A stretch of DNA of 38,760 nt from a virus. The notes under the pieces are model-generated. The model had not been told where the DNA came from and did not search any database. It saw nothing but the letters and a program-made list of their open reading frames with translations. Location of the stretch: positions 1 through 38,760 of IMG/VR virus record IMGVR_UViG_3300025120_000179, one strand, 5' to 3'. Positions 12,756 to 37,000 of the stretch are shown here, in pieces (the stretch's first letter is position 1; each line of letters starts with the position of its first letter). A program made the translations under genes and the position numbers.

Positions 12756-14309
12756 TTAATAATACCCACTGCTACGCCGTTTAAAGTATCGCTGTTCCTC
12801 TGGTTCATCAGTAGGTAGTCGTATGAACCCACCTTGCCGGAACCGCATTAGAGCCATGACGGTGGAGTCCACCAAGTCATCGTTGCTCATAAACGGAAAC
12901 CCTGCTATTTCTTCTACTACTTCTTCAGCCCAACGTGTCTGGGGAACCCAGCACAGACCAGACGCTACAATATCAGATACTGAGTTTAGACGCGCTAGTT
13001 TATCACCTGACCCTCTATGCGGGGTATATTCTGATACTGGTAGTCCCATCCTACGCATTTCTTGGTAAAGGGCCACACCAGAACTTTTCTTCTCTACAAT
13101 AAACGAGTCAGGCTCCCAGTCCGAATACTCTTCCATAGCAAGCTCTTTTAGCTCTGGAAACTCCATACGTCGTTTAATGCTATTCAACAGTATTATATTA
13201 TACGCACTCTCTTCCTCATTATAGAAGACCCCCCACGTAGTTAACGCGGTATAGTCGGCCCTATTGTGTTTTTCTGCCGCAGCATCGAGGGACATTATGA
13301 TGTATTCGCAAGATGGAGGCTCCTCACTCATCCATAAATTCCACCACTCACGCTTAACTAGGGCGGCTTCTTCTGCGGTAGGCTGTTGTTGGTATTGAGC
13401 ATTCCACTGAAATGTGGGCATAGATGCCTTAGTACGCATCAACGCTTCTAAATCAAAGAACTCAGGCCACAGGGGTTTTTCAATCACCTCCTTAGTCTCT
13501 GAGTCTGCAAACTCTAGTATCGCGGGAAACTCTACTACCTGAAACTGATCAGATCGCTCATTCTGAGCCATATCCTTAATGACACGGCCTGTCAGGTCAT
13601 CCATATGCCATCTAGTCTGTATGATAGCTACACGACCCCCCGGCATCAGACGAGTACGCGCACCGAACGTATACCACTCATATGCCTTCTCAAACACAGA
13701 GAAGTTACCGTTAATCACGTCTTGCTCAGAGTGTGGGTCATCTACCAATAGCAAATCAGCGCCACGACCCGCTAGTGCGGAGCCTACACCACAGGCGTAA
13801 TACTCTCCCCCTGCGCTAGTATTCCACCTACCTGCTGATTTAGAGTCAACAGCTAACTTAGTAACCGGAAATATAGTCTTATATTCGGGGGTAGCGATTA
13901 AATTACGTACTTTACGACCAAAATCTACCGCCAAATCGGTTGTGTGGGACACCATCATCACTTTTTTGTTCGGATTACGCCCCAAAAACCACGCTGGGTA
14001 GAAAATAGACACTAATTGTGACTTGCCGTGGCGTGGTGGGATATTTACGCAGACACGATCCTTATCCCCACGCTCAATCTCCATCAACATGTCCGCCAAA
14101 ATGCGGTGATGTTTCCCAACAATGAAGTCAGGCATCATAGCCTTGCAAAAGTCTATCAGATCATCGTATGCTAGCTTGTTCTGCCGCCGATTTGCTAGCT
14201 CATCCACCATTCTCTCAATCTCAACGACCTCATCTGCCGAATACTCGTCAAGATTATCAAGTAATAGCTGGACTTCTTCTTCAGTAAAGTCTTCAGGCGG
14301 GGTTTTCAT
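12756..14309 (-). CDS. terL: Terminase large subunit
   Basis: The 517-residue packaging motor has a Walker A-like PPRHGKS (91-97), Walker B LLLVDD (186-191) and a coupling-type segment IIQTRWHMDDLTGRV (229-243). In the RNase H-like nuclease domain, LDAAAEK (341-347), VEKKSSG (405-411) and NDDLVDS (476-482) supply the acidic metal ligands. It would package DNA into the prohead and cut it. The start overlaps the upstream small gene by 17 bases. All key residues are present. Confidence 0.93.
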   Translation of the reverse strand: MKTPPEDFTEEEVQLLLDNLDEYSADEVVEIERMVDELANRRQNKLAYDDLIDFCKAMMPDFIVGKHHRILADMLMEIERGDKDRVCVNIPPRHGKSQLVSIFYPAWFLGRNPNKKVMMVSHTTDLAVDFGRKVRNLIATPEYKTIFPVTKLAVDSKSAGRWNTSAGGEYYACGVGSALAGRGADLLLVDDPHSEQDVINGNFSVFEKAYEWYTFGARTRLMPGGRVAIIQTRWHMDDLTGRVIKDMAQNERSDQFQVVEFPAILEFADSETKEVIEKPLWPEFFDLEALMRTKASMPTFQWNAQYQQQPTAEEAALVKREWWNLWMSEEPPSCEYIIMSLDAAAEKHNRADYTALTTWGVFYNEEESAYNIILLNSIKRRMEFPELKELAMEEYSDWEPDSFIVEKKSSGVALYQEMRRMGLPVSEYTPHRGSGDKLARLNSVSDIVASGLCWVPQTRWAEEVVEEIAGFPFMSNDDLVDSTVMALMRFRQGGFIRLPTDEPEEQRYFKRRSSGYY

Positions 14310-16268: not shown

Positions 16269-16417
16269 ACGCAACCGAACGGAACGAACGTGCCGCCAAG
16301 TACATCGCACTGAAGCAATACCAGCGCAGGATGGAACGGCGAGACTGGATCGGGGTGGGCCTTATGTTTGCCCTCTCGGTTTTTCTGGTAACTATAGGAC
16401 TACTCACCTCGGCTTGA
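16265..16417 (+). CDS. Small single-span membrane protein (50 aa)
   Basis: This 50-residue product starts MNATERNERAAKYIALKQYQ. A charged, amphipathic N-terminal half is followed by WIGVGLMFALSVFLVTIGLL (28-47), a clear transmembrane helix, then a short tail. The start overlaps the upstream stop (ATGA). The basic residues before the span predict an inside N-terminus. A strong terminator follows within ten bases. It could be a host-membrane effector or a holin-like protein, but the location away from the late block argues against lysis. Confidence 0.6.
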   Translation: MNATERNERAAKYIALKQYQRRMERRDWIGVGLMFALSVFLVTIGLLTSA

Positions 16418-16423
16418 CCGATA

Positions 16424-16460
16424 CCCCTGTTCACCTTCGGGTGGATGGGGGATTTTTTTT
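16424..16460 (+). terminator. Rho-independent terminator ending the GC-rich gene trio
   Basis: CACC-TTCG-GGTG (16432-16443) forms a stable C(UUCG)G hairpin. It is extended by outer CCCC (16424-16427) pairing with GGGG (16447-16450) and followed by eight T residues at 16453-16460. It lies immediately downstream of the small membrane protein gene and insulates it from the repeat region. Confidence 0.85.
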
Positions 16461-16466
16461 GGCTTT

Positions 16467-16498
16467 GAAACCAGTTCCTCTAGTAGCGTAGCGCATAG
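16467..16498 (+). repeat. Direct repeat copy 1 (GAAACCAGTTCC ... TAGTAGCGTAGCG)
   Basis: This 32-base element begins GAAACCAGTTCC and ends GTAGCGCATAG. It recurs 124 bp downstream with only a few differences. It directly follows the terminator T-run of the GC-rich trio. A shorter 13-base version occurs at 23783-23795. Confidence 0.85.
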
Positions 16499-16590
16499 CA
16501 GATCGTCTTAGCCAAGCGTATCCCCTCTGGCCCTCATATCACCAGTCATCTCTATCTCTCCTGAACAAGGAGTCTTCTCTTACCGTCACA

Positions 16591-16622
16591 GAAACCAGTT
16601 CCCTTAGTAGCGTAGCGTATAG
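16591..16622 (+). repeat. Direct repeat copy 2 (GAAACCAGTTCCC ... TAGTAGCGTAGCG)
   Basis: The second copy of the 32-base element is preceded, about 18 bases upstream, by a TCCT-N5-AGGAG hairpin and a TCTTCTCT stretch. The 23783 copy has the same context of hairpin, TTCTCT and then GAAACCAGTTCCC. Confidence 0.85.
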
Positions 16623-16672
16623 TCCTCGGCAGAGTCATGGCAGGGATTACTCCTGCACAAGGAGTGATTTGT

Positions 16673-16739
16673 AATGTTCCCTTGTAATGTTCCAAATGTT
16701 CCGCAATGTTCCCCTAATGTTCCCTTAGAACGGAACATT
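16673..16739. repeat. Iteron-like cluster of AATGTTCC sites
   Basis: Five direct AATGTTCC octamers start at 16673, 16686, 16695, 16705 and 16716, with start-to-start spacings of 9 to 13 bases. One inverted GGAACATT lies at 16732-16739. Further sites are at 16857 (direct), 16999 and 17059 (inverted), with GGAACA half-sites at 17007 and 17049. Spacing near one helical turn suggests cooperative protein binding. Confidence 0.85.
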
Positions 16740-17130
16740 GTCTAATACTGGCTATTGCTATCAGGCAGGGTCATTCCCTATCTAGAAGTATCGGATTAAG
16801 ACTGTCTAAAACTGTCTAAAAGTATTTAAAAGTATTATATATATATATATATACCTAATGTTCCCTTTTATTGAAATAGTATTTAGTCCCTCAGAGACTT
16901 CCTCAATACTCACCCCCGTCATATAAACCGGTTAACACGATAGTGTGTTCCTTTTTATATTCTCCTTTCTTAGGAGGCATACAAAAACGTCAAATTACGG
17001 AACATTGGAACAGTACTTGTATTTCAGTAACTTAGCCAACTACCCTACGGAACAGTGTGGAACATTATCAATAGACACTATTAACCACTATTAGACAGTA
17101 ACCCCTCCTACTAGGTAGTTTATGACAATA

Positions 17131-17140
17131 TGTGTATAAT
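17131..17140 (+). promoter_or_regulatory. Candidate early promoter -10 element
   Basis: A perfect TATAAT at 17135-17140 is preceded by TGTG. No TTGACA-like hexamer is at the right distance, so it would be an extended -10-like or activator-dependent promoter. It lies 70 bases before the first early gene and just after the last GGAACATT site, so a protein bound to those sites could control it. Confidence 0.4.
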
Positions 17141-17189
17141 ATACGTAGGGTTGAGATTTGACCTGACGCGACATTTACTTACCAACTAG

Positions 17190-17203
17190 TCCTTACCAAG
17201 GAG
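17190..17203 (+). promoter_or_regulatory. TCCT-N5-AGGAG hairpin over a ribosome binding site
   Basis: TCCT (17190-17193), five bases and AGGAG (17199-17203) place the Shine-Dalgarno in the 3' arm of a four-base hairpin, seven bases before ATG 17211. The same layout occurs at 17492-17505, 19232-19245 and 20351-20364, each before an early gene. Confidence 0.55.
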
Positions 17204-17210
17204 AGAAACA

Positions 17211-17501
17211 ATGGAAAGACAAACTGAAGATCCCAAGCTGTTTACCAAGCGTGAGCTAGACTTGTACACAGCACACGTCCTCAAGCACCTTGAAGCGCAC
17301 ATCCTGAGTCACGATACCGCTGACGAGACAGGCGATGAGGTTAAGGCTACTTACCTGCGAATGGTACGCGCATGGCAACGCAATGAAGAACTGCCTACCG
17401 TTCAATGGGCAGAGATGATTGCCGATACTTACGGCACACCAGAACCCATCGTGCTAGACCCAGAACTAGCTAGACCCACCCCCACTTACCATCCTAAATA
17501 A
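17211..17501 (+). CDS. First early gene, unknown 96-aa protein
   Basis: The acidic, helical 96-residue protein starts MERQTEDPKLFTKRELDLYT and ends in a Pro/Thr-rich tail. An AGGAG seven bases upstream gives a strong start. No family is recognised and no membrane or metal motif is present. It heads the operon that encodes the MoxR/VWA cassette, directly downstream of the iteron-like region and early promoter, so it should be among the first phage proteins made. A regulator or host-interacting role is only a guess. Confidence 0.7.
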   Translation: MERQTEDPKLFTKRELDLYTAHVLKHLEAHILSHDTADETGDEVKATYLRMVRAWQRNEELPTVQWAEMIADTYGTPEPIVLDPELARPTPTYHPK

Positions 17502-17511
17502 GGAGTAATCT

Positions 17512-18405
17512 ATGAACACAGCTATTGATATACACAGGCACGTAGCACCCTTGCACGAACGAGTCACGTTGGTTGAGTTGTCCCGATCCCGATGGGGCGC
17601 GACCACCTTAGACAAGGAGGCCACCAAGAAACTGTTGACTGCTAACAATGCGCGTAACGGTGCTGCTAGGGTAAACAAGTCCGTACTAGCAGGTTGCGTA
17701 CAACTCGATCTCGTCAACAAGTACTACCGCGACATCTACAACAAACACGCATACATGACCCAAGCGTTCAACGACAGTGGACTGCGTGTGCTGTGTAACC
17801 TCATGTACGAAGACTACGTGAAGACCATCAGTGGCATGATCACTGAGTTTAATGCTCTGGTTGAGGACTTTGTCATTGCCTATCAGTTTGAGAAGCTAGA
17901 AGCAAAGCACGTACAGGGTGACCTGTATGACCCAGCGGATTATCCAGACGAGGATATTGTCAGGGGCAAGTTTGACATACGCTACAAGCTGTACCCCATG
18001 CCAACCCGTGGGCAGTGGGCATTGGATATGTCGAGCGAGGTGACTGAAGAGATTATGACTCGATTCGATGCAGACATGGCGGACATGGAGACTCGTCTGC
18101 TAGGCGACACATGGGAACACGCACGTAAGGTTCTCACAAACATGTCTACACAACTGGGTAGCTATGACCTGAAAGACCGACCCAAGTTGTATGAGTCACT
18201 CGTCACTAATGTGACTGACGTTGCAGGACTTATGGAGAAGTGTAACCCCACCAACGATCCCAAGATGGAGATGGCGCGGATCGAAATCATGGAAGCTATG
18301 CGCGGTGTGAGCAAGGATGCCCTCAAAGAAGACAGAGGACTGCGTACTGAAACAAAGAAAGCTGTAGATACAATCCTATCCACACTACCAACCCTAGACT
18401 TCTAA
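17512..18405 (+). CDS. DUF3150-like partner of the MoxR/VWA cassette
   Basis: This 297-residue helical protein begins its main domain with VTLVELSRSRWGATTLDKEA. It includes FNALVEDFVIAYQFEKLEAK followed by YPDEDIVRGKFDIRYKLYPM. The 'F..Y..L...-YP..e..r.kF...y...P.P' arrangement resembles DUF3150, a family I know to be encoded with CobS/MoxR-type ATPases and VWA proteins in phages and mobile elements. The C-terminus is charged and helical. It precedes a tail-anchored protein and the ATPase, all same-strand with short gaps. The family match is by pattern only. Confidence 0.6.
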   Translation: MNTAIDIHRHVAPLHERVTLVELSRSRWGATTLDKEATKKLLTANNARNGAARVNKSVLAGCVQLDLVNKYYRDIYNKHAYMTQAFNDSGLRVLCNLMYEDYVKTISGMITEFNALVEDFVIAYQFEKLEAKHVQGDLYDPADYPDEDIVRGKFDIRYKLYPMPTRGQWALDMSSEVTEEIMTRFDADMADMETRLLGDTWEHARKVLTNMSTQLGSYDLKDRPKLYESLVTNVTDVAGLMEKCNPTNDPKMEMARIEIMEAMRGVSKDALKEDRGLRTETKKAVDTILSTLPTLDF

Positions 18406-18415
18406 GGAGAACGAC

Positions 18416-19228
18416 ATGGCTAAGAGAAACTATTTTACTAAAAAAGGCACAAAGCAAGGGGCGCTCGTTGACTGCATCAAGCACTTGAATGAGCATACAA
18501 GAGAGGGCTTCAGCACTATCTGGGATTTGCGCGATCAACTCCCTTACTTTCACGACAATATAGTCCCGAAAGCTGTCCACATTCCTGACCTGTACACCAT
18601 ACTGTACAAGATTGGTGTGTCCACAGGTGTATGCGAGGTGCGGTTCCGGATAAGGGTTTCGACCACGTCCCTGTCGGGTGATTCAGCCGTGATGCTAATG
18701 ACACCGGCAGAGTATAGCGCCTATCGGAAGAACCTTCCAAGGGGTATCGATAAAGCTATGGACTATCGCGCGGCGGTGTTTATATTGGCAAGTGCGGAAC
18801 ACTATCAGAAGCGTATGGACGCTAAGAAAGCATCCGTGGCAAAGAGAAAGAAGAAGCAGGAAGATAAAACCCCCATACCCATGCATGAGAAGTCGTTCTA
18901 TGACCGAGTGGCAAAGCGGTACGATACGCCCGTTGTGGAGGATGGCACGATCAACATGCCGCAACTACCCACAAGCCAAGAAGTATACAACGCCAAGACA
19001 GATGCCGAGGTCGACCAGCAACTAAAAGACTTCTTCACGGACGAGTCCCCTACAACAGAGGACAAGCCGATTATCCCGGTAGAAGAATCCAATTCAGAAC
19101 CTGCCGGGGTGGAACCCCTAAAGGCACTACATATAGACCTGTCCTATACACGACTAGCTATAGGTATTGCCGGCGGTGTCTTCGTCGGTATGATCGTCAG
19201 TAACCTAATCACTCTACTTTTTATATAA
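18416..19228 (+). CDS. Tail-anchored membrane protein of the MoxR/VWA cassette
   Basis: A 270-residue product with a soluble N-terminal domain of about 130 residues (MAKRNYFTKKGTKQGALVDC; YRKNLPRGIDKAMDYRAAVF). A Lys-rich linker (VAKRKKKQEDK) and an acidic disordered region follow. The protein ends in one hydrophobic span (LAIGIAGGVFVGMIVSNLITLLFI, about residues 247-270), so it is anchored by the C-terminus with the bulk in the cytoplasm. The start has AAGGAG upstream. No enzyme motif is visible. It may place the ATPase/VWA complex at the membrane, but that is inference. Confidence 0.65.
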   Translation: MAKRNYFTKKGTKQGALVDCIKHLNEHTREGFSTIWDLRDQLPYFHDNIVPKAVHIPDLYTILYKIGVSTGVCEVRFRIRVSTTSLSGDSAVMLMTPAEYSAYRKNLPRGIDKAMDYRAAVFILASAEHYQKRMDAKKASVAKRKKKQEDKTPIPMHEKSFYDRVAKRYDTPVVEDGTINMPQLPTSQEVYNAKTDAEVDQQLKDFFTDESPTTEDKPIIPVEESNSEPAGVEPLKALHIDLSYTRLAIGIAGGVFVGMIVSNLITLLFI

Positions 19229-19252
19229 CCATCCTAATCAAGGAGCAATATC

Positions 19253-20356
19253 ATGGGACAAGTAAATCCAGAAAGAATGTTCGACGTGGACTTTCAAGAA
19301 GCCACAGATTGTATATGTGCGTATGGCCCTGACATTACAATACTGTTGGAGGGACACATGGGTATCGGTAAGTCTGCTCAGTTGGAAGAAGTAGGCAAAC
19401 GATTCCCCACCTACAAGAAGTATTACTTTGACTGCACCACCAAGATGGATGCCGGTGACGTGATGATCCCCAAGCTAAAGGACATTGATGGTAACGACTT
19501 TGTACGGTTTGCCACCAATGAAGAATTGGGTATCCACCTACAGAAAACCCCTAGCATACTGATGATTGACGAGTACGGCAAAGGTAACAAGAGTCTTACA
19601 AACTCCATGAACCGCCTGTGCTATGAGCGCAAGCTAGGCGCTTACACTATGCACAAAGACTCCATCGTGTTCTTGACCACCAACCTAGGTGCAGAGAACG
19701 TCGGAGATACGTTAGCGCCTCAACAACTCAATCGTATGACGGTCATGCGTGTTCGCAAACCATCCCACACTGATTGGATTGATTGGGGTCTGAAAAAAGG
19801 TCTCAACCACGTAGTGCTAGGCTGTGTGCGTGAGAACCCACACTGGCTCCAACCATTCGATGAGGTGGACAACCCCTCCGACAATCCCTACATCTACCAT
19901 CCGAGAGAGCAACGCCGACACTTTGTCACTGGGCGTAGTCTAGAGAAGGCTTCCATCATCTTTGGTCGCAAGGACGTGATCACGACAAGGGCATTGACTT
20001 GTATGTTGAACGGGACTATCGGTGTCGCCGCTACTAATACATTGATGACCTTCTCTCGACTGACCGAGCAACTACCAACTATGGACTCCATCAAGAACGA
20101 TCCGATGAATGCCAAGGTGCCAGATGATGCGGCGGGTGTCTGTCTTGTGATCTACAGAACGCTACAGACTATTGAGCGTGACTGGGTAGATGCGTGGATG
20201 ACTTATGTGCAGAGACTAGGCAAGGAAGCGCAGGGTATGTTCGGCAAGACTGTGTGCCACAAAGACTATGGTCGCCGCAAGCAAGTGGTGAACACCAAAT
20301 CTTTTATGGCGTGGGCGCGGGCCAACAACTACATGTATGAAGAAGATCAGTCCTAA
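19253..20356 (+). CDS. MoxR/CobS-type AAA+ ATPase
   Basis: The 367-residue ATPase has Walker A GHMGIGKS (34-41), Walker B LMIDEY (103-108) and a sensor-1 region IVFLTTNLG (138-146). This is the short, single-AAA+ MoxR/CobS layout. Such proteins remodel or load partners that carry VWA domains and metal ions. The next gene, 16 bp away, encodes a zincin/VWA protein, the classic partner. The ribosome site lies in a TCCT-N5-AGGAG hairpin. The complex's target cannot be read from sequence. Confidence 0.85.
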   Translation: MGQVNPERMFDVDFQEATDCICAYGPDITILLEGHMGIGKSAQLEEVGKRFPTYKKYYFDCTTKMDAGDVMIPKLKDIDGNDFVRFATNEELGIHLQKTPSILMIDEYGKGNKSLTNSMNRLCYERKLGAYTMHKDSIVFLTTNLGAENVGDTLAPQQLNRMTVMRVRKPSHTDWIDWGLKKGLNHVVLGCVRENPHWLQPFDEVDNPSDNPYIYHPREQRRHFVTGRSLEKASIIFGRKDVITTRALTCMLNGTIGVAATNTLMTFSRLTEQLPTMDSIKNDPMNAKVPDDAAGVCLVIYRTLQTIERDWVDAWMTYVQRLGKEAQGMFGKTVCHKDYGRRKQVVNTKSFMAWARANNYMYEEDQS

Positions 20357-20371
20357 CCAAGGAGAGACATT

Positions 20372-21577
20372 ATGTTTGCACGAGAACTTACAGTTGAGCA
20401 ACGGCTCGACAAGAATATCGTAGCTATTATGGGTAAGGACAGGTACGTGTCTATGACTCAGATACTTATGATCGGCAAGAAAGAAGTGAAGGACGGGGTA
20501 TCCACTGCCTATACCGATGGCAAGAACGAGGTGTATGGCAGAGAGTTCCATGAGCAGTTGACCGACCCTGAGTTTCGGTTTGTCATCCTGCATGAGAATT
20601 ACCACAAGGCGTTTCGCCAGATCACAGTGTGGCATCACCTCTGGTTGATTGATGCCAAGCTAACCAACATGGCCGCAGACTACGTTATCAACATCATCAT
20701 TGTCGACGAGAACAAGGATGACAAGTTTGCAGTCATGCCCAAGGGTGGTCTATATGACGAGCGGTTCCGTGGTATGGATGTACAGCAGGTGTTCGACATC
20801 CTGTACAAAGAGCAGGAGAGCTGCGGTGAAGGAGGTAGTGGTGGGGACGAGCCTCCTAGAGAAGGAGAGGAGGGGGACTTCCGTGACGATCACGACTGGA
20901 CAGCGGGACGTACTGTGGAGGAGGAAGAAGACCTCAAGGTACAGATTCACGAAGCCCTACAGAGCGGTGTGTTACTTGCTAGCAAGACAGGCAGTGGTGG
21001 CAATCGCACAGTGGAGGAACTAGCCAAGCCACGGGTTGACTGGCGGCAAGTGATGAAGGACTTCGCTGTTGACACAATGGCAGGGTCAGACTACACCACA
21101 TATCGCAGACCCAATCGTCGGCACTATGGTGAGGGTTACTACCTACCAAGCGGCATGACTGACGTGGTAGGTGAGATGGTGTCTGCACCAGATATGTCTG
21201 GCTCTATTGGTACTAGAGAGCAAGGTGTGTTTCTTGGTGAGACTGAATCTCTGTGTAAGTTGGTCAAGCCCTCGAAGCTGCACGTTATGTACTGGGATAC
21301 CCAAGTGTGTCAGCACGAACAATACGATCCCGACCAGATGGACACGTTCACCAGTGAGACTACCCCCAAGGGCGGTGGTGGTACGGATGCACGATGCATA
21401 CCAGAATTTATCACGGCAAAAAACCTCAACCCCCAGTGTGTGATTGTCCTCACAGATGGGCATGTGTGGAGTTGGGGTAATTGGACTTGCCCAGTTCTTT
21501 GGGTGGTAGTTGACAACGAGAGTGCCGAGCCACCTATTGGTAAGGTAGTTCATGTTCGATCAGGAGATATGCGATGA
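20372..21577 (+). CDS. Zincin-like and VWA-domain protein (DUF2201/CobT-like)
   Basis: The 401-residue protein has an N-terminal HENYH (74-78) in a metallopeptidase-like helix. An acidic Gly/Glu-rich linker (about 149-190) follows, then a VWA-type domain. The metal-ion-dependent adhesion site is intact: DMSGS (274-278), GGGGTD (334-339) and LTDG (360-363). This two-domain form (DUF2201-like) is a known partner of MoxR ATPases. It follows the ATPase gene, with the ribosome site in the same hairpin type. It may bind or process a protein substrate; the substrate is unknown. Confidence 0.8.
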   Translation: MFARELTVEQRLDKNIVAIMGKDRYVSMTQILMIGKKEVKDGVSTAYTDGKNEVYGREFHEQLTDPEFRFVILHENYHKAFRQITVWHHLWLIDAKLTNMAADYVINIIIVDENKDDKFAVMPKGGLYDERFRGMDVQQVFDILYKEQESCGEGGSGGDEPPREGEEGDFRDDHDWTAGRTVEEEEDLKVQIHEALQSGVLLASKTGSGGNRTVEELAKPRVDWRQVMKDFAVDTMAGSDYTTYRRPNRRHYGEGYYLPSGMTDVVGEMVSAPDMSGSIGTREQGVFLGETESLCKLVKPSKLHVMYWDTQVCQHEQYDPDQMDTFTSETTPKGGGGTDARCIPEFITAKNLNPQCVIVLTDGHVWSWGNWTCPVLWVVVDNESAEPPIGKVVHVRSGDMR

Positions 21578-22482
21578 CTGTATATAGAGTGGCTTTACGT
21601 AGTTTTGAAGAAGTGGAGAGACACTACTGTTCTGTGAAACCTATCCGTGGGACTAGTATACGTCCCATTGGCAAACGAGCCAGAAACCATGAGTATATTA
21701 AGAGAGTATCAGATGATCACTACAACATCATGGGGTGTTTTGACTCTACCCCCGTCGTGACATGGCTACGTTCAGATGGTGATACCTATGTACACATCTA
21801 CAACCACGGGTGTACATCGTCCTATCGGTATCTAGAGCGAGTCATACCGGCAGGGCTTCATTTCGCCGTGGTTCAGTCTGGTAAGCACCGCATAAGTTGG
21901 GTAGAGAGACCCCCGATGAACATGGGGCATAGTGGTGAAGCGTACATTCCCGATATGCACAATTCGGCCTACAAGGGTATTCCTGTGCCACACCTACATT
22001 TCATACGTGATGGGGATCACTGGCGGCAGGTGGGTACTAAGTTTCACCCCCCGCGTAGACGTGTCAGAAAGGAGGCCAAGCAACCCTATCGTAAGGCAAT
22101 AGCTAAGTTCTACGATGACCTGTTGGTTATGATCCCTATGCTACGCGACAGTTTTACGAAACAGGGTGTTGGCTATGCAAACTCAGCCCTTCAAGGAGGT
22201 GGCGGAAGAAATGGTTGGGAAGGATACCTAGCGCACAGCCTTCCTATGGCAAATCTCTATCGAGAGATCCTCCTCGATGAGGAGCATGAGCATAGAGCCG
22301 ACCTTATGATCGCAATCATAGGTAGCTTGGAACAGGTAAGCCTACACCAGTGTGATGGCTATGGTAAGAACGTACCCATATGGAAACGAACCAACCTTAG
22401 AAATTCTTACAATAATTGGATCAATGAGCGACTGTTCTTTACTGAGACAGTCTTTGAACAAGAGGAGATACCTAATGAGTGA
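21574..22482 (+). CDS. Unknown early protein linked to MoxR/VWA genes
   Basis: The product is 302 residues; its ATG overlaps the VWA gene stop (ATGA), and GGAG lies seven bases upstream. The N-terminal half is rich in aromatic residues and His (DTYVHIYNHGCTSSYRYLER; VPHLHFIRDGDHWRQVGTKF). The C-terminal half is helical with a Gly-rich loop (ALQGGGGRNGWEGYL). I recognise no family. Tight coupling to the cassette suggests a shared function, perhaps as substrate or adaptor. Confidence 0.65.
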   Translation: MTVYRVALRSFEEVERHYCSVKPIRGTSIRPIGKRARNHEYIKRVSDDHYNIMGCFDSTPVVTWLRSDGDTYVHIYNHGCTSSYRYLERVIPAGLHFAVVQSGKHRISWVERPPMNMGHSGEAYIPDMHNSAYKGIPVPHLHFIRDGDHWRQVGTKFHPPRRRVRKEAKQPYRKAIAKFYDDLLVMIPMLRDSFTKQGVGYANSALQGGGGRNGWEGYLAHSLPMANLYREILLDEEHEHRADLMIAIIGSLEQVSLHQCDGYGKNVPIWKRTNLRNSYNNWINERLFFTETVFEQEEIPNE

Positions 22483-23530
22483 TCTATTCGCACGTAACCA
22501 CCTAGTGAGTGAGCTAGGTTTTCTTTCCTACAAAGAGGGCGATGACGTGTACGCACGTAATGAGCCTTTCGAGGTTCTCCCTCATTCTAATCTACTGGAT
22601 GATTTTATTGCTATGGTATTCAGATCTATACGAGGATGCACCCTGCATCAGGAAGACCTTGCGGTAACCTTTCACACCGACGGTAAGGACGCTATTAGGG
22701 GGAAGTGGTGGGTTAGTTTACCTGATGACCCGTTTCCTATGGGTAAGATCGAGCTAAGAATGAAGGAGATCCCTCGTCGTAAAGACTACAAACGACACTT
22801 ACATTTCTTTATAGCGTCACCACAGATTAGTGCTGAACGATCTAATGGCAGTGTGTCTGGTTGGCTTTCTCGATGCACTAAGCAGACTACCGACTGGAAG
22901 GTAGCAGAGCGCCATATCCGTAAGTACATACGCAAGCGTTCGGTGCTTCAATGTGCTAATCACATGGCAGACATAACCTCAACTGATGCAGAGAGGGACA
23001 CGGATGCTATGGCAAGAAAGTTTACTGATCACTTAGATAGTATTATGGAGTACAAAAATAACTACTCAGTTAGTTCCCCAGACAGGATAGAGTCACCCCT
23101 GTTAGACGAGTTATCCATCCTGCACAAGGAGGGCTATCAGTTCAAGAATGAAGCCTTTCAAACTGCTGTTGACAACTACATGGCGTACCGAGAAGAGGTA
23201 GCAAGTACGCCCACAAATACAGACAACGTGGCGTATGTGAAGGTGGTCAAACCGACACCTCCCTACCAACATACACGCATTGATGTAGTCCCTATGAGTA
23301 ATACTCAGTCTTATTCTAATAAATGGAAGCCTATAGCTAGTCCTGATAATAGGGACGAGTTTATAGTGTATCGATATGACAACCGCAACGGCTGGGATAA
23401 CGCCGGTGTACCCGAACACATACAGGACAAGACTGCCGCCCTTGACTGCTGTGATGTCGGTGAGTGGGTGACTGGGTTGGGTGTCAAGCTAGGAGAGGGG
23501 ACATATTGTGTCATATGGGACGTGGTATAG
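22475..23530 (+). CDS. Unknown 351-aa early protein
   Basis: I start this at ATG 22475, not at an upstream in-frame ATG (22352). GAGGAG lies eight bases before 22475, and the upstream codons overlap the previous gene. The product begins MSDLFARNHLVSELGFLSYK and continues with beta-prone sequence and two charged helical stretches (ERHIRKYIRKRSVLQCANHM; TDHLDSIMEYKN). No motif, membrane span or metal site is recognisable. It overlaps the previous gene by eight bases and the next by 23 bases. Confidence 0.65.
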   Translation: MSDLFARNHLVSELGFLSYKEGDDVYARNEPFEVLPHSNLLDDFIAMVFRSIRGCTLHQEDLAVTFHTDGKDAIRGKWWVSLPDDPFPMGKIELRMKEIPRRKDYKRHLHFFIASPQISAERSNGSVSGWLSRCTKQTTDWKVAERHIRKYIRKRSVLQCANHMADITSTDAERDTDAMARKFTDHLDSIMEYKNNYSVSSPDRIESPLLDELSILHKEGYQFKNEAFQTAVDNYMAYREEVASTPTNTDNVAYVKVVKPTPPYQHTRIDVVPMSNTQSYSNKWKPIASPDNRDEFIVYRYDNRNGWDNAGVPEHIQDKTAALDCCDVGEWVTGLGVKLGEGTYCVIWDVV

Positions 23531-23738
23531 CGTAGTAACAGACAGAAAAACGTTCATTGTACAACCCATTGGTAGGGAATATGTTGACAACACACTATCT
23601 GGTAATTATGATACTTTTGAGTCACTACCTGACAGTATTCAATCGAAACTGTCAGTTCTCAGGATACTAGAGGATGAGGACGAGATTGATGGTATAGGTA
23701 AACGCCATAACTCTGAATCGTATTGGGTCTACATTTAG
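23508..23738 (+). CDS. Small unknown protein with GTG start
   Basis: This 76-residue protein starts at GTG with GGAGAGGGG upstream and overlaps the preceding gene by 23 bases. It contains SVVTDRKTFIVQPIGREYV and a C-terminal DGIGKRHNSESYWVYI. Composition is acidic. The strand-rich N-terminus and helical middle suggest a compact soluble domain. It ends the run of unknown genes after the MoxR/VWA pair and is followed by a hairpin. Confidence 0.55.
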   Translation: MSYGTWYSVVTDRKTFIVQPIGREYVDNTLSGNYDTFESLPDSIQSKLSVLRILEDEDEIDGIGKRHNSESYWVYI

Positions 23739-23807: not shown

Positions 23808-23948
23808 ATGAAGGTAAAAATAGAGATAGAGATTGAGGACGCACAGATACACGAACTTGTGCGCGAACTTATTTATACAATAGAGGACGTAGCTGATGTC
23901 ATCGACGCCAGAAAAGAAAGTGAAGCAACAGGTAATGCAAGCTCTTAA
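23808..23948 (+). CDS. Small acidic helical protein (46 aa)
   Basis: The ORF starts at ATG 23808 with AAGGAG four bases upstream, and overlaps the nuclease gene by 53 bases in another frame. The product begins MKVKIEIEIEDAQIHELVRE, one beta strand then a helix, and ends with KESEATGNASS. A strand-helix peptide of this size could be an antidote-like or regulatory partner of the downstream nuclease, but there is no direct evidence. Confidence 0.5.
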   Translation: MKVKIEIEIEDAQIHELVRELIYTIEDVADVIDARKESEATGNASS

Positions 23949-24243
23949 ACATATGGGGGCATACTACTTCTACCCTGTCACAGGAGGGTATGGTCGCAGT
24001 GGTGTACCGGACATAGTGGGGTGCTGGGAGGGTAGATTCTTTGGTATTGAGTGCAAGGCTGGTAAAAACTTACCCACAGCACTGCAACTTAAAAACCTAA
24101 AAGAGATCACAGACTCAGGCGGTATCGCCCTAGTCATCAACGAAGAGAATGTGAGTAGCACCGCGTCACTCATCACAGGGCAGATACAAACTAACCCTAA
24201 TGAACGAGTGCCAGAGCAACTTGAATTTGATTTCGGAGAGTAA
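23896..24243 (+). CDS. VRR-NUC family nuclease
   Basis: The 115-residue protein has the stand-alone VRR-NUC layout. Glu6 lies in the first helix, followed by GGYGRSGVPDIVG (30-42, with Asp39) and GIECKAGK (50-57), which gives the PD-x(n)-ExK core (Asp39, Glu52, Lys54). LQLKNLKEITDSGG forms the last core helix. Such nucleases cut branched or junction DNA in phage replication. It lies just upstream of the polymerase genes. It starts inside the small gene at 23808. Confidence 0.88.
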   Translation: MSSTPEKKVKQQVMQALKHMGAYYFYPVTGGYGRSGVPDIVGCWEGRFFGIECKAGKNLPTALQLKNLKEITDSGGIALVINEENVSSTASLITGQIQTNPNERVPEQLEFDFGE

Positions 24244-29205: not shown

Positions 29206-29481
29206 ATGCAAGAAAATAGTGAACCCTTAGTACCAATGGAGGATGTTGCGAAGCACTTTGCCGTATCTACTTCATGCCTTCGCTCATGGTTTCGTAGAGG
29301 TCAAATACCTCCGCACACCTATATCAAGGTAGGTAACACTAAACGGTTTCGTCTGAAGGCGTTAGAAGAAGCTCTGCGCGGTACTACCCCCCTTAAACCA
29401 TCGGCGTTAGAAGGGGTAGATGATACTCCTAGAGAAGATCCAACCAACTTTGATATTGATGATCTTCTTGAGGACATATAA
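29206..29481 (+). CDS. Excisionase-type helix-turn-helix protein
   Basis: The product is 91 residues from ATG 29206, which has GAGGAA six bases upstream; the in-frame ATG at 29191 has none. VPMEDVAKHFAVSTSCLRSW followed by FRRGQIPPHTYIKVGNTKRF is a MerR/excisionase-like winged helix-turn-helix. The tail is acidic. There is no integrase in the window, so a regulatory or DNA-bending role is more likely than excision. It is one base from the nuclease gene. Confidence 0.75.
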   Translation: MQENSEPLVPMEDVAKHFAVSTSCLRSWFRRGQIPPHTYIKVGNTKRFRLKALEEALRGTTPLKPSALEGVDDTPREDPTNFDIDDLLEDI

Positions 29482-30968
29482 TGCTAGTTGATGACATGAC
29501 GAATGAGGACTACCACGCGCTTAAAGCTATATCAAGTTCGGCGGTCAAGACCATACATGCGAAGTCATTACTACATTGGAAGACCGCAGTATTCAAAGAA
29601 AACCCTGCATTTGCTCTTGGCACTGCTGTACACGCATTACTATTAGAGCCAGAGAAAGACTTAGTAGTATGCGGCCCTGAGACTAGACGTGGTAGTGCAT
29701 GGGCAGATGCTAAAGAGTTGGCAGAGGCGGAAGGTAAGACCCTTTTAGTAAAGTCTGACTACGATACGTGTGTAGCTATGGCAGAGAGCGTATTGCGGAA
29801 TAGTAATGCCGCTAGTTTGTTGCAAGACTCATGCGGAATAACAGAGGTTAGTATCTTTAACAAAGATCCTGAGACAGGGTTAAAGTTAAAAGCACGTCCA
29901 GACTTGTTTATACCAGAGCAAGGGATAATACTGGATGTAAAGACCACCAAGGATGCGAGTCCTAAGAACGGTGGGTTTGAAAGGCAGTTCTTCAGTTTAG
30001 GGTATCACGTACAAGCGGCGTTCTATAAGCATGTCCTTGAGCTAGATGGGTACCCAATTGAAGAGTTTATCTTCTTGGCAGTGGAGAAAGAACCACCCTA
30101 CGCTGTCCAGATGCATTATCTGCACAAAGAAGTTCTTGAGTTTGGTCTGGTACAAGTAAAAGAAGTCTTAGAGCAGATAAAGAATGTGGAGGACAGAGGT
30201 ATAGACGATACTGGCTGGCCTTCACGTAACTTAATACTTCTTCCGAAATGGATGAAAGCGACTAACAGGATAGATGATATGACAGATTATACTATAACAG
30301 GTGTTGAGGCTCTGTGGCCTCGTATAAACCGAACATACAAGTTCGACCAAGCGGAGAAAAGGTCAGTGCCTTGTGATGCATTTGATGATGGGGCGGCTTA
30401 CAACATTCAGTTCCGCATGACTAAAGAGCAAGCTAAAGAACTCTTTACTGAGATGGCGAAGGCTTATTTAGAAGCCCGTGAAGATTCTTGGCCTGACAAG
30501 ATTGAGATACCCTTCAAGCGCGACGAAGACACAGGTACGTTTACAGGGAAAGCTACGATCAAGGGTGCATATGGCAAAGAAGCCACCAAGAAGCCTATGC
30601 AAGTAGATGCTCAAGGTAATAAACTACCAGAAGATTTTCTCTTGACTACGGGCAGTACAGTAAACATTGCTATCGCATTCTTCCCATACAATATGCGCGA
30701 TGCAGGTGTGTCTCTACGACTACGCGCTGTTCAAGTTATTAAGTACGCTGAGTTGGAAGAGCGTAACCCCTTCAGTGCTGTGGAAGGATACGTACATGAC
30801 CGTGATGACAACCCCTTTAAACCCGAACCTCTTATAGAAGAGAGCGAAGTAACAGAAGAAAGTCCTCCCCCGCTTACCGTTGTGAAGTCCAAGGCAAGGG
30901 CGAAATCAAAAGCCGAGCCTACCAAGGTAGACGACGAGTTAGCTAGTATTATCGGTAGCTTCGACTAA
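29481..30968 (+). CDS. RecE-like exonuclease fused to a gp2.5-type SSB domain
   Basis: The protein has 495 residues. Residues 1-240 are RecE/PDDEXK: NEDYHALKAISSSAVK, FALGTAVHALLLEPE (44-58) and Asp141 followed by Asp152-x-Lys154 (PDLF...DVK), then Gln178/Tyr182. Residues about 275-440 form an SSB-like barrel (INRTYKFDQAEKRSVPCDAF; NIAIAFFPYNMRDAGVSLRL; NPFSAVEGY). The end DELASIIGSFD resembles an acidic SSB tip. A Pro/Lys linker joins barrel and tip. In most phages these are two genes. It would resect double-strand ends and hold the strand for annealing. Confidence 0.8.
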   Translation: MLVDDMTNEDYHALKAISSSAVKTIHAKSLLHWKTAVFKENPAFALGTAVHALLLEPEKDLVVCGPETRRGSAWADAKELAEAEGKTLLVKSDYDTCVAMAESVLRNSNAASLLQDSCGITEVSIFNKDPETGLKLKARPDLFIPEQGIILDVKTTKDASPKNGGFERQFFSLGYHVQAAFYKHVLELDGYPIEEFIFLAVEKEPPYAVQMHYLHKEVLEFGLVQVKEVLEQIKNVEDRGIDDTGWPSRNLILLPKWMKATNRIDDMTDYTITGVEALWPRINRTYKFDQAEKRSVPCDAFDDGAAYNIQFRMTKEQAKELFTEMAKAYLEAREDSWPDKIEIPFKRDEDTGTFTGKATIKGAYGKEATKKPMQVDAQGNKLPEDFLLTTGSTVNIAIAFFPYNMRDAGVSLRLRAVQVIKYAELEERNPFSAVEGYVHDRDDNPFKPEPLIEESEVTEESPPPLTVVKSKARAKSKAEPTKVDDELASIIGSFD

Positions 30969-33838: not shown

Positions 33839-34037
33839 CATAAATCCCGATGGGATAAGGGTAATAATTAACTGGGAGCGGATGGTCGTGGGGGCATCCG
33901 TTTTTGTTTTGTGCGTCAACACTGAGAAAGCTATATCGCAGTTAACTAAGATAACTCAGGCAAAAGGTTGGGACTCAACCATACGAACAGTTACAGAGGA
34001 CGGTAAGCTAGGGGTGCGTATATGGCGGGTTACTTAA
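33822..34037 (+). CDS. Small unknown protein after the primase
   Basis: The 71-residue product starts within the last codons of the primase gene (17-base overlap). It has MLKIGDINPDGIRVIINWER, then AISQLTKITQAKGWDSTIRT and a C-terminal GVRIWRVT. This reads as a small alpha-beta domain. Its stop overlaps the stop of the convergent giant gene by four bases. Function is unknown. Confidence 0.55.
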   Translation: MLKIGDINPDGIRVIINWERMVVGASVFVLCVNTEKAISQLTKITQAKGWDSTIRTVTEDGKLGVRIWRVT

Positions 34038-37000
34038 AGCTGATTCTTTCTACGCTCTGCCTCGTCAAGTACCATGTTCATAGTCACGTTAACGTACTCA
34101 TCGTTGTGGTCATCTAGGGCGGCTCTAAACTGAGGCTGAACTCTTAGTCCATTCACAGTCTCGTTTCTTGCTTGCATATCGCCTTTTGCTGAACGCCTCA
34201 ACACTGCGTTAGTTATTGCAGGGTAGTCTATATGACGGTCATTCCACTTATCCATCCTATCGAAGTAGTTATCTACTAACTCATAATCCCCCATGTAGTT
34301 ACCTAGGTTTATATTACCTAAGATAGTATCTCGTTCTTGCATTATGGCATCTTGCTTTCTCTTAAACGAGGAGTTCCGCTGTTGTTGTGTAGCATACTCA
34401 TTGGGCTGAAACCCTAGGAATAGTCCCGCAGTGTCGCCAAACGATAGGTCGTCCATTATGACGGACTGCTTACGAGTCAGAAGCCCTTCATCTCTAGGTA
34501 CTCTAACGGCAGCGCGGTATGCGTTCCGTACAGCCGCTGGCATCATTGCCTCTCTCCCCCGCTCTACTTGCACACCGTTCTCAGCTTCAATAACTTCCTT
34601 TGCCCCTTTGTAGAACTGTGAACCTACACTCCATGCAGGGCCACCGAATGCATATGCAAATTCTTCTTCGGGAGTGGGGTCGTTGTTAAACTTGTTAGCC
34701 CGGAATACAAGGTTAGTAAGTGCTATTCTAGTGGATGTGTCTACACCAGTGAGTGCTACTAACGGCCCTTTATATCCAAGATCCCCAAGGTATTTTTGAG
34801 TTAACGTCTCGGCATCATCCTCTTGATCGTCTAAGAAGAACATATCTGCCATAGCAGTAACCATCCCGTATATAGGTATACCTTGCACACCCGCAAAGAA
34901 TAAACCTGAGAGATGCACCCCCACCAACTGCCCAAAGGCCTCGTTACGCAGTCTTATGTTTTCAGCGGTGTTGTTTGAGAATTTAATATTTTTAAGTAGC
35001 TGTTTGCCAGACTTGAACATGGTGTAGTACATCTGGATGCCATAGTTCTTATACATAAGAGCGACTCGCCCGATACCTTTTTGGGCTAGCCTAGAACCAG
35101 TCTCTAATGTAGAGCCTCCGTTTATTTCTTGCGTAGAGTACATAGCCGCATCTGCCGCTTTGTTCATCTGTTCTGTTGTAGGGTTAGCCCCATACTGCGC
35201 CAGTTCAAGTTTGTACGCCGCCATCATTGTAATCTGACGGTTAAACTGTTCCGCTTGGTGAAACATAATCGCGGACACACCTGTTAGTCGGTCAGCTACT
35301 GAATTAGTTCGCCCAGACTCGTCTATACCAAGACTGTCTGATATTATGGATGTGTTGAGTTGCCCTTGACCAGAGGCTGTAGTATACAAAGGCAGGAGAA
35401 GCTCTAGCTCTCTTTTTAGTTCAGCCGCTTTCTTCTTGTCTTTGGGATACTGCATATCGTCGCGTATCTTATAGTTACCATCAACATCTAACTCGTAATA
35501 GTTAACCATTGAGGGAGCTACAAACCCACTGGCTATAGAAGTCTCTCCTCCATACCCTACGCCATGAGATAGCCTACGATCAAACCCACTACCTGCAAAT
35601 ATCTTACCTGCATCACGCAAGGCCGCTGAAGTTTTTGTAAACCCGTACTTACCACTTAACATAGGTAGTGCAAACAGGGGTATTTGAGATGTATTAACTA
35701 ATGCGGAAGACACGTTTGCACCAAGAGTCCACATAAACGCCATGCGATTATATGGTTGCGCCCAGTCTCGCGTAGAAGAGCCTTTAGCAAAATCAGCACG
35801 TTTGCCCAATTCTGCTAAGTAAGCTGCTTTTTTAGGGTCATCTCCTGATAGGGGGTTGTTTTCTATCAACTCATCCATAGCCCTACTTATGTTTTCGGAA
35901 CCTTTGATCCGCTCTATCTGCCTAGCTAAGTCATAGGACTTAGTTTGCATAGCCCCTAATGCATCCCTGTCAAAGCCCGCTACGTTGTCTCGTTTTGTTA
36001 ACGACTTAGCGATTGAAGACTCAGGTAAAGCCTGTAAGAATATGTTAGTAAGTTCTTCCTTTATCTTTTTGTCTTTGACATTGGCTGCATCTAAGGCGGC
36101 TAAAACCTCTCCCATAAACGATTGAGAAGGGGCGTTATTTAATGACTTCCCCATCCCTGCTAGTTCGTCTGGGTTGTTGGCAAAGGGCTTAATGCTTTCT
36201 TTTACTACGTCAGAATCACCTTCTAACTCTTTCATAAACCTTTTTCTAGCGTTATTAGAGTCAAAGGTTGTTACTACATAGTCAGTGCTTGTACTGTAAG
36301 CCAACCAATAATCACCACTTCGTGTTAAGGGGAAGTAAGGTCGAATCTCGTTCCTAGCAAACAACTCGTTATATATTCTCAGCTTAATTCTGGCCCTACT
36401 ATCTTTGGACTTCTTATCTGTTCCAATTATTGTGTTGTCTATTCTTTTGTACAACACGCTCCTGAGATCGGCAAACTGGTTCTTATAGAACTCGCGTAAG
36501 AATATGTAGGTATCTTGTCCTTCTTTGCCAAGTCCTTTCCAATCCTCTTGCAGGAGCCGCCATACATCTGCTTTGTCTGGGTCAGGGTTCTTCTCAGGCA
36601 CAGCTTTTTTAACGGGCTTACCTTTGTTTATAAGCTCTACCGCTTTATCCCTTGCTACTAGTGTGTCGTGAGAACTTCGTACTTCTTTAAACTCAGGGTT
36701 AGTTTCTGGAGATGTCTCTTTATTGGGATTGTAGGTAGGGTTTTTGACGTACCTAATCAACCAGAATTTAGTGTATTCTTTTATATCATCAGTAGGGTCT
36801 ACACTGTTTGTAGTGCTGTCATACACGACTTTATCGAACAACTCTTTCTTCTTAGGGTTAGCCTTTAAGTACCGCGCTAAACGAAGTACAGCCGCATTTA
36901 CTTTGTTTTCAGCTTTACTTAACGCCCCACGTTGCTCTGTTATAGATTCCTGCACCTTTATAGCTCCCTTGATGTCCCCATACTCAGCGGACATATCTAC

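Follow-up and report, generated by a model that had tools for sequence, protein, structure and literature searches.

We analyzed the whole of the IMG/VR virus record IMGVR_UViG_3300025120_000179 (38,760 bases, hereafter the window) and describe here a cassette of eight open reading frames (ORFs), named A to H from 5′ to 3′, that occupies positions 17211-23738 and lies entirely on the + strand. Genes A to E are separated by gaps of 10, 10, 24 and 15 bases, and from E onward the genes overlap. Three of the products constitute the core of the cassette (core members 1, 2 and 3, respectively): a DUF3150-family protein (B), a MoxR-type ATPase (D) and a protein in which a zincin metallopeptidase-like domain is fused to a VWA domain (E). 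The original prediction, made by inspection of the DNA and its translations, had claimed a consecutive, tightly spaced run of eight genes encoding, among others, a DUF3150-like protein, a MoxR-type ATPase and a zincin/VWA protein with an intact metal site. Each of these claims was borne out by the searches described below, the one concerning B through its relatives and its predicted fold and not through its own Pfam scan.

Core Genes of the Cassette

Gene E (20372-21577, + strand) encodes a 401-amino acid protein that matches the Pfam families DUF2201_N (4.9e-20) and DUF2201 (5.3e-17) as well as the PHROG family phrog_1314 (2.9e-78). The zinc motif HENYH is located at residues 74-78 (20591-20605), and the metal-ion-dependent adhesion site (MIDAS) sequence DMSGS of the VWA domain at residues 274-278 (21191-21205). 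The window protein has a full MIDAS, and in an alignment of 132 homologues (77 viral and 55 bacterial or plasmid) the MIDAS residues D274, S276, S278 and D362 are invariant. Residues H74, E75, H78, N99 and D103 are conserved in all 77 viral sequences; among the 55 bacterial ones, 49 to 52 retain them. “HNH endonuclease” is the label given to phrog_1314, a name that E-type proteins also bear in many phage records. Since E is a zincin-VWA protein by Pfam, this name seems to be an error that has been propagated.

Gene D (19253-20356, + strand) encodes a 367-amino acid ATPase of the MoxR/AAA_5 type. The match to AAA_5 is marginal (22.1 bits with a cut-off of 22), and the protein also matches phrog_1297, labelled “ATPase” (5e-33). 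Its Walker A motif occupies residues 34-41 (19352-19375) and its Walker B motif, LMIDE, residues 103-107 (19559-19573). The Walker A GK pair and N144 are each present in 118 of 118 D homologues, and the Walker B residue D106 is kept in all 62 viral ones. By profile, the best solved relative of D is midasin.

Gene B (17512-18405, + strand) encodes a 297-amino acid protein that itself retrieved no Pfam family at E values up to 1, and thus no direct match to PF11348 (DUF3150). PF11348 was, however, matched by 8 of 11 members of the B family (best 9.7e-7). A tblastn search linked B to the DUF3150-annotated protein of Synechococcus phage MinM2 (28.5%, 1e-10), and the predicted fold of B superimposes on that of a viral DUF3150 protein with a template modelling (TM) score of 0.80. 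The AlphaFold2 (AF2) model of B, with a predicted local distance difference test (pLDDT) value of 92.1 and a predicted TM score (pTM) of 0.82, consists of a small β sheet and two antiparallel helices of ~43 residues each (96-138 and 175-217). Searches of the PDB yielded no confident match to B either by fold (Foldseek, best E value 0.095) or by sequence (best E value 0.07); in VIA, B retrieved generic four-helix bundles alone (Z 10.6, 97 aligned, 3.0 Å), within a range that VIA calls common.

Linkage and Co-Divergence in Viral Loci

Viral contigs were scanned with the E alignment, and the best 80 of 252 relatives were kept; together with the results of other searches they gave 87 IMG/VR loci, two of which (L008 and L014) lie on one contig and six of which (L009-L014) were fetched by B alone. 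Of the 87 loci, 84 contain D and 76 contain B (78 and 70 of 81, respectively, if the six fetched by B are excluded); F was found in 43 and a gene of the G/H type in 70. Upstream sequence is short wherever a core gene is missing: no more than 317 bases precede E in the three loci without D, and no more than 493 bases precede D or E in the eleven without B. All of these loci are cut off by the end of the contig. The commonest gene order is B-D-E-(F)-G-H, and since it recurs in scores of divergent contigs, the linkage is far beyond chance. Thus, the genes do travel together, and the ATPase and the VWA protein, which the original prediction had allowed might belong to separate pathways, are instead members of one known pair.

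Many of these contigs share the backbone of the window (a relative of its terminase is found in 46, and one of its DNA polymerase in 48, of the 91 loci besides the window), so linkage within the window's own group could be plain descent. Pairwise distances were compared in 14 dereplicated loci in which TerL and DNA polymerase are present along with B, D and E. Correlations between the distances were 0.90 for B-D, 0.90 for B-E and 0.91 for D-E, values that were reached in none of 2000 permutations, whereas correlations of the three proteins with TerL were 0.04-0.20 and with DNA polymerase 0.52-0.68. When the window was dropped, the trio retained correlations of 0.89-0.90, and the values for TerL rose to 0.13-0.32. 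Mean distances were smallest for E and D (0.45 each), followed by B (0.60), F (0.70) and G (0.77), indicating that the outer partners change fastest.

The Trio in Other Phages, Plasmids and Bacteria

The three core genes also occur together on other backbones. In phage MinM2 the order is ATPase, a small gene, DUF3150, three small genes and VWA, and five of the viral loci (L009-L013) have the order D-B-E. The MinM2 DUF3150 protein retrieved 42 plasmid records. In Rhodovastum and Cupriavidus plasmids, the ATPase, DUF3150 and VWA genes are consecutive (D-B-E), and in a Simplicispira plasmid DUF3150 adjoins VWA, with the ATPase gene ~3.2 kb upstream. The Burkholderiales and Rhodovastum plasmid genes thus belong to the same three families as those of the window; they differ from it in their order (D-B-E versus B-D-E), and F, G and H were not seen in the plasmid annotation. 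An NCBIfam search with five window and three plasmid proteins gave no match. In several plasmid or Burkholderiales loci a hypothetical protein of ~550 amino acids precedes D-B-E; two of these were scanned and have no Pfam match.

Altogether, DUF3150 fetched 83 plasmid or bacterial loci, of which 57 contain D, B and E; B is accompanied by E in two loci and by a weak D in one, and it stands alone in the other 23. The 24 loci without E are mostly on Planctomycetota and delta-proteobacterial contigs, and DUF3150 is therefore not tied to zincin-VWA everywhere. Among 12 listed E-less loci, a P-loop ORF lies upstream of B in four, and the three of these that were scanned are PF00004 AAA proteins; no P-loop was found by pattern search in the other eight. 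Since E-less loci sometimes pair DUF3150 with a PF00004 AAA protein, it may be an ATPase and not the VWA protein that constantly accompanies DUF3150. Genes for PF00004 AAA, SWIM zinc-finger, Prok-JAB-like and SprT-like proteins were seen near DUF3150 in the loci that lack zincin-VWA (L153-L176).

We conclude that the DUF3150 protein is a third core member beside the ATPase and the VWA protein, in phages and on plasmids, and that the trio, being present on plasmids as well, is not phage-specific.

The D-E Pair in N4-Like Phages

Relatives of D and E are also found in phage isolates. In phage LUZ7, the D match is annotated as “N4 gp24-like” and the E match as “N4 gp25-like”, and helicase and DNA polymerase genes come next, as they do after the D-E pair of Vibrio phage D471. 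As reported for 25 N4-like phages, gp24 and gp25 of N4 are 2 of 14 core genes and belong to the middle class; their entries read “unknown” and “vWFA domain” (PMC4193335). These Schitoviridae core genes (PMC4193335, PMC2784036) are thus homologous to D and E and have, as in the window, helicase and DNA polymerase genes downstream; they differ from the window in that no DUF3150 gene was detected alongside and that identity is 20-24%. The genes preceding the ATPase in LUZ7 (ORF36) and SABI (278 amino acids) are not DUF3150 by profile, and those between ATPase and VWA in SCTP-2 (285 amino acids) and PhAER-4 (417 amino acids) gave no DUF3150 match, each being a weak test with a single sequence. At two vequintavirus-type loci, D is on the opposite strand, ~4 kb from E.

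A Putative Remodelling Machine and Its Alternatives

Our preferred, and still tentative, interpretation is that B, D and E may constitute a three-subunit, ATP-driven AAA+ machine for remodelling or proteolysis that acts early to middle in infection, with a replication or transcription complex as the likeliest target. D would form a MoxR-type AAA+ ring, on which E would dock through its VWA/MIDAS domain, presenting the zinc peptidase. Such docking is suggested by NorQD, where the VWA partner is reported to dock on the ATPase ring (PMC13036017). B would act as a dedicated adaptor or scaffold, recruiting the target to the ring. The trio would then pull apart a protein belonging to a nucleic-acid-bound complex, and probably clip it as well, with the zincin cutting or binding what the ring pulls. 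The target would most likely be the phage replication/transcription apparatus, or the host complex that this apparatus replaces, in the early to middle phase of infection, and F, G and H might be lineage-specific substrates or specificity factors. A target bound to nucleic acid seems to us likelier than a virion component because the cassette precedes the replication genes in the window, because N4 gp24/25 are reported to be of the middle class and because the trio has plasmid homes. The interpretation as a whole is supported by the linkage of B, D and E in phages and on plasmids, by their co-divergence and by their intact ATPase, zinc and MIDAS motifs.

Several observations weigh against this interpretation. 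Twelve isolate loci hold E (one fetched by a B match, two by D and nine by E alone); D is present at all 12, and B was detectable at one, that of MinM2, while among the nine fetched by E alone the counts are 9/9 for D and 0/9 for B. B is therefore not needed in every version of the system, being undetected in 11 of 12 D-E isolate loci. Peptidase activity is not common to all E proteins, as H74 differs in 5 of the 55 bacterial sequences. In the distance comparison, four of the 14 sequences of TerL are fragments (106 to 434 amino acids), and, since B also correlates with DNA polymerase (0.52), the co-divergence is in part shared descent. The plasmid trio is found near type IV secretion genes (VirB11- and VirB4-like, 7 of 59 flanking proteins each; L094, L096 and L102-L130), so its neighbours are not confined to replication genes. 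Finally, in jumbo phages CBB and pEa_SNUABM_50, where our D and E profiles find both proteins, the pair adjoins structural genes, a setting that fits virion assembly and counts toward a virion part as the target.

The last point bears on a possibility that we consider somewhat unlikely, namely that the cassette encodes a chaperone for virion assembly that also processes structural proteins by proteolysis. Group 2.2 jumbo phages are described as encoding a MoxR AAA+ ATPase and metallopeptidase-vWA pair, for which a role in virion assembly was suggested (Iyer et al. 2021, PMC7824862). As described there, these are the same two genes with the same N-terminal metallopeptidase-vWA fusion as in D and E; they differ from the window in having structural neighbours instead of replication ones, and no DUF3150 partner was detected. 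In roseophage RPP1, moreover, four virion proteins are reported to map near the gp24/gp25 homologues (PMC4193335). Several points speak against an assembly role: both in the window and in its relatives, the set runs together with replication genes and is oriented divergently to the head genes, N4 gp24/25 are reported to be of the middle class, and the trio resides on plasmids, which build no virion.

In our estimate it is unlikely that the cassette serves to dismantle a host complex early in infection, whether as a host-directed or as a counter-defence machine. The early/middle position of the genes would suit such a role, as would the presence of the set in both phages and plasmids, and the fast divergence of F and G (0.70 and 0.77, compared with 0.45 for D) and of C (68% identity between the window and its near relative, locus L005, compared with 98.6% for D) would fit an arms race. 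Other causes can give fast divergence, however, and the core status of gp24/25 in 25 N4-like phages, as reported, is unlike that of most accessory counter-defence genes. PADLOC (2023 library) returned 0 families for six window and three plasmid proteins at E values up to 0.01, so the suggestion of counter-defence in the original prediction gained no positive evidence.

A bolder form of the remodelling interpretation, in which DUF3150, MoxR and zincin/VWA would make up a self-contained, mobile AAA+ protease of three subunits, a new kind of Clp-like regulated protease spread by phages and plasmids, with DUF3150 as its substrate adaptor and the C-terminal domain of G and H as a handle by which it recognizes its own phage-encoded substrates, is decidedly doubtful. 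It is markedly improbable that D and E act as a two-part pair alone, with B, F, G and H as mere neighbours held by the backbone of the phage group. The isolate loci without a detectable B, the non-DUF3150 gene that precedes gp24 in N4-like phages and the backbone common to most IMG/VR loci would fit such a view; the recurrence of the trio in a different order (D-B-E) on plasmids and other phage backbones speaks against it, and B tracks D and E, not TerL.

Phage cobS/cobT genes have been read as vitamin B12 genes (PMC8651126, PMC11288001), and the “cobS/cobT” genes of phages and archaeal viruses, as described, resemble the window in placing an AAA+ protein beside a vWA/MIDAS protein. The CobT model TIGR01651 matched nothing in the window (a Caulobacter control was positive), the CobS model TIGR01650 scored 12.9 bits with a cut-off of 558.55, and CobN (PF02514) had no match in the window record, although the host may encode one. 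Membership in the aerobic cobaltochelatase CobNST was therefore rejected. That D and E are CobS and CobT, auxiliary metabolic genes hijacking a host CobN as claimed for phage cobST, is hardly credible, since all three models fail, the zinc-peptidase motif is intact in all 77 viral E proteins, and the linked gene is DUF3150 instead. With the zinc motif intact in every viral E examined, “peptidase” is likely a better label for E than CobT.

Relation to Known MoxR-VWA Systems

With an ATPase that has intact Walker A and B motifs and an adjacent VWA protein with a MIDAS, the cassette belongs to the MoxR-VWA AAA+ systems. NorQ/NorD, RavA/ViaA and CbbQ/CbbO likewise combine a MoxR-type ATPase with a VWA partner; they are not known to have a zincin domain or a DUF3150 partner. 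In the ternary MoxR-vWA conflict systems with VMAP or FtsH (PMC7159879), the third component is VMAP or FtsH-like, whereas here it is DUF3150. The cassette had been put forward as a possible undescribed system. This does not hold for the MoxR and zincin-VWA pair, which is already described (PMC7824862, PMC4193335, PMC8651126). It may hold for the DUF3150 third member and the fast-evolving F, G and H, which we did not find described: in the open-access PMC literature DUF3150 was not found named, and the MoxR-VWA pair is described there while the three-part set was not found.

Relatives of E are common (668 of 50,697 phage records) and D-E is a core gene pair of N4-like phages, yet these proteins have been read as B12 metabolism, HNH endonuclease, virion chaperone or unknown. 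The DUF3150 third member offers, in phages and plasmids alike, a way into the role of the machine through a small, cloneable three-gene set, and it would also help to put right annotations that are now widespread in public databases.

Accessory and Lineage-Specific Genes

The remaining five genes are likewise on the + strand. A (17211-17501) encodes a 96-amino acid leader protein with no Pfam or PHROG match; of 92 loci, just two, the window and L005, contain it, and it is thus lineage-specific, as is C. C (18416-19228) encodes a protein of 270 amino acids with a single C-terminal hydrophobic segment, placed by hydropathy at residues 247-265 (bases 19154-19210). The tail-anchored membrane protein foreseen in the original prediction is thus present in that respect, and it is not a core component: the full C protein was found only in the window and L005 among the same loci, and ORFs with transmembrane segments, detected in 24 of 77 cassettes scanned, share no common form. 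A membrane anchor was accordingly rejected as a core part.

F (21574-22482, 302 amino acids) is a conserved accessory member in this phage group. None of 30 members has a Pfam match, and a relative of F from locus L038 found no match in phage isolates. G (22475-23530, 351 amino acids from the ATG start) is an accessory member whose start is uncertain, the alternative being the GTG at 22352 that opens the longest frame. Neither F nor G matched known families, save that 1 of 40 G members touched phrog_32141. The C-terminal domain of G (residues 311-346, 23405-23512) is common to H (23508-23738), a 76-amino acid accessory member that mostly consists of this domain (H residues 24-76). In reciprocal profile searches, H tails find 44 G proteins (E value below 1e-3) and G tails find 51 H proteins. 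The G tail was also considered as a general tag and rejected as such: beyond G and H it matched one ORF (L091, 211 amino acids, in the position of G), and it is thus a G/H domain. MinM2 MM2_63 was ruled out as a G homologue. The AF2 model of G has a pLDDT of 80 and found no confident match in the PDB (Foldseek, best E value 0.15); in VIA it aligned with 4h62_Q (Z 7.2, 95 aligned, 3.4 Å), again in the range that VIA calls common. The PDB fold searches of B and G are no demonstration of new folds.

Genomic Setting

Terminase and portal genes lie to the left of the cassette on the opposite strand. To its right are a gene (23896-24243) that we take to encode a nuclease-like protein and genes for DNA polymerase, helicase, exonuclease/annealing and primase functions. 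“Early” timing is suggested by the divergent arrangement and by the replication genes that follow the cassette. A placement directly behind an early promoter, as had been claimed, was not supported, since the number of promoter-like matches (15) shows no excess over the shuffle mean (14.3). The ~940 bases at 16269-17210, which contain no + strand ORF of 50 amino acids starting beyond 16417, probably form a regulatory region between the divergent arms; a terminator-like 12-pair hairpin followed by a T run is located at 16424-16451. Rfam and tRNA scans of the window gave no match, nor did a DNA-level search for the cassette among phage isolates.

The terminase (12756-14309) is nearest to those of HTVC023P-type pelagiphages (46.8% to HTVC027P). 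No B, D or E was found in the 49 kb searched of each of HTVC023P and DSL-LC04, relatives by terminase. On the minus strand, a 1460-amino acid ORF (34034-38416) resembles C-terminal parts of giant phage proteins, one of which is labelled DarB-like antirestriction (phrog_10089, 2.3e-47), and its product is possibly a large polyvalent or injected protein. A single ORF at 29481-30968 has PHROG matches to exonuclease VIII-like proteins (residues 3-262) and to Gp2.5-like single-stranded DNA-binding/annealing proteins (residues 262-457), and its predicted product is a fused exonuclease-annealase.

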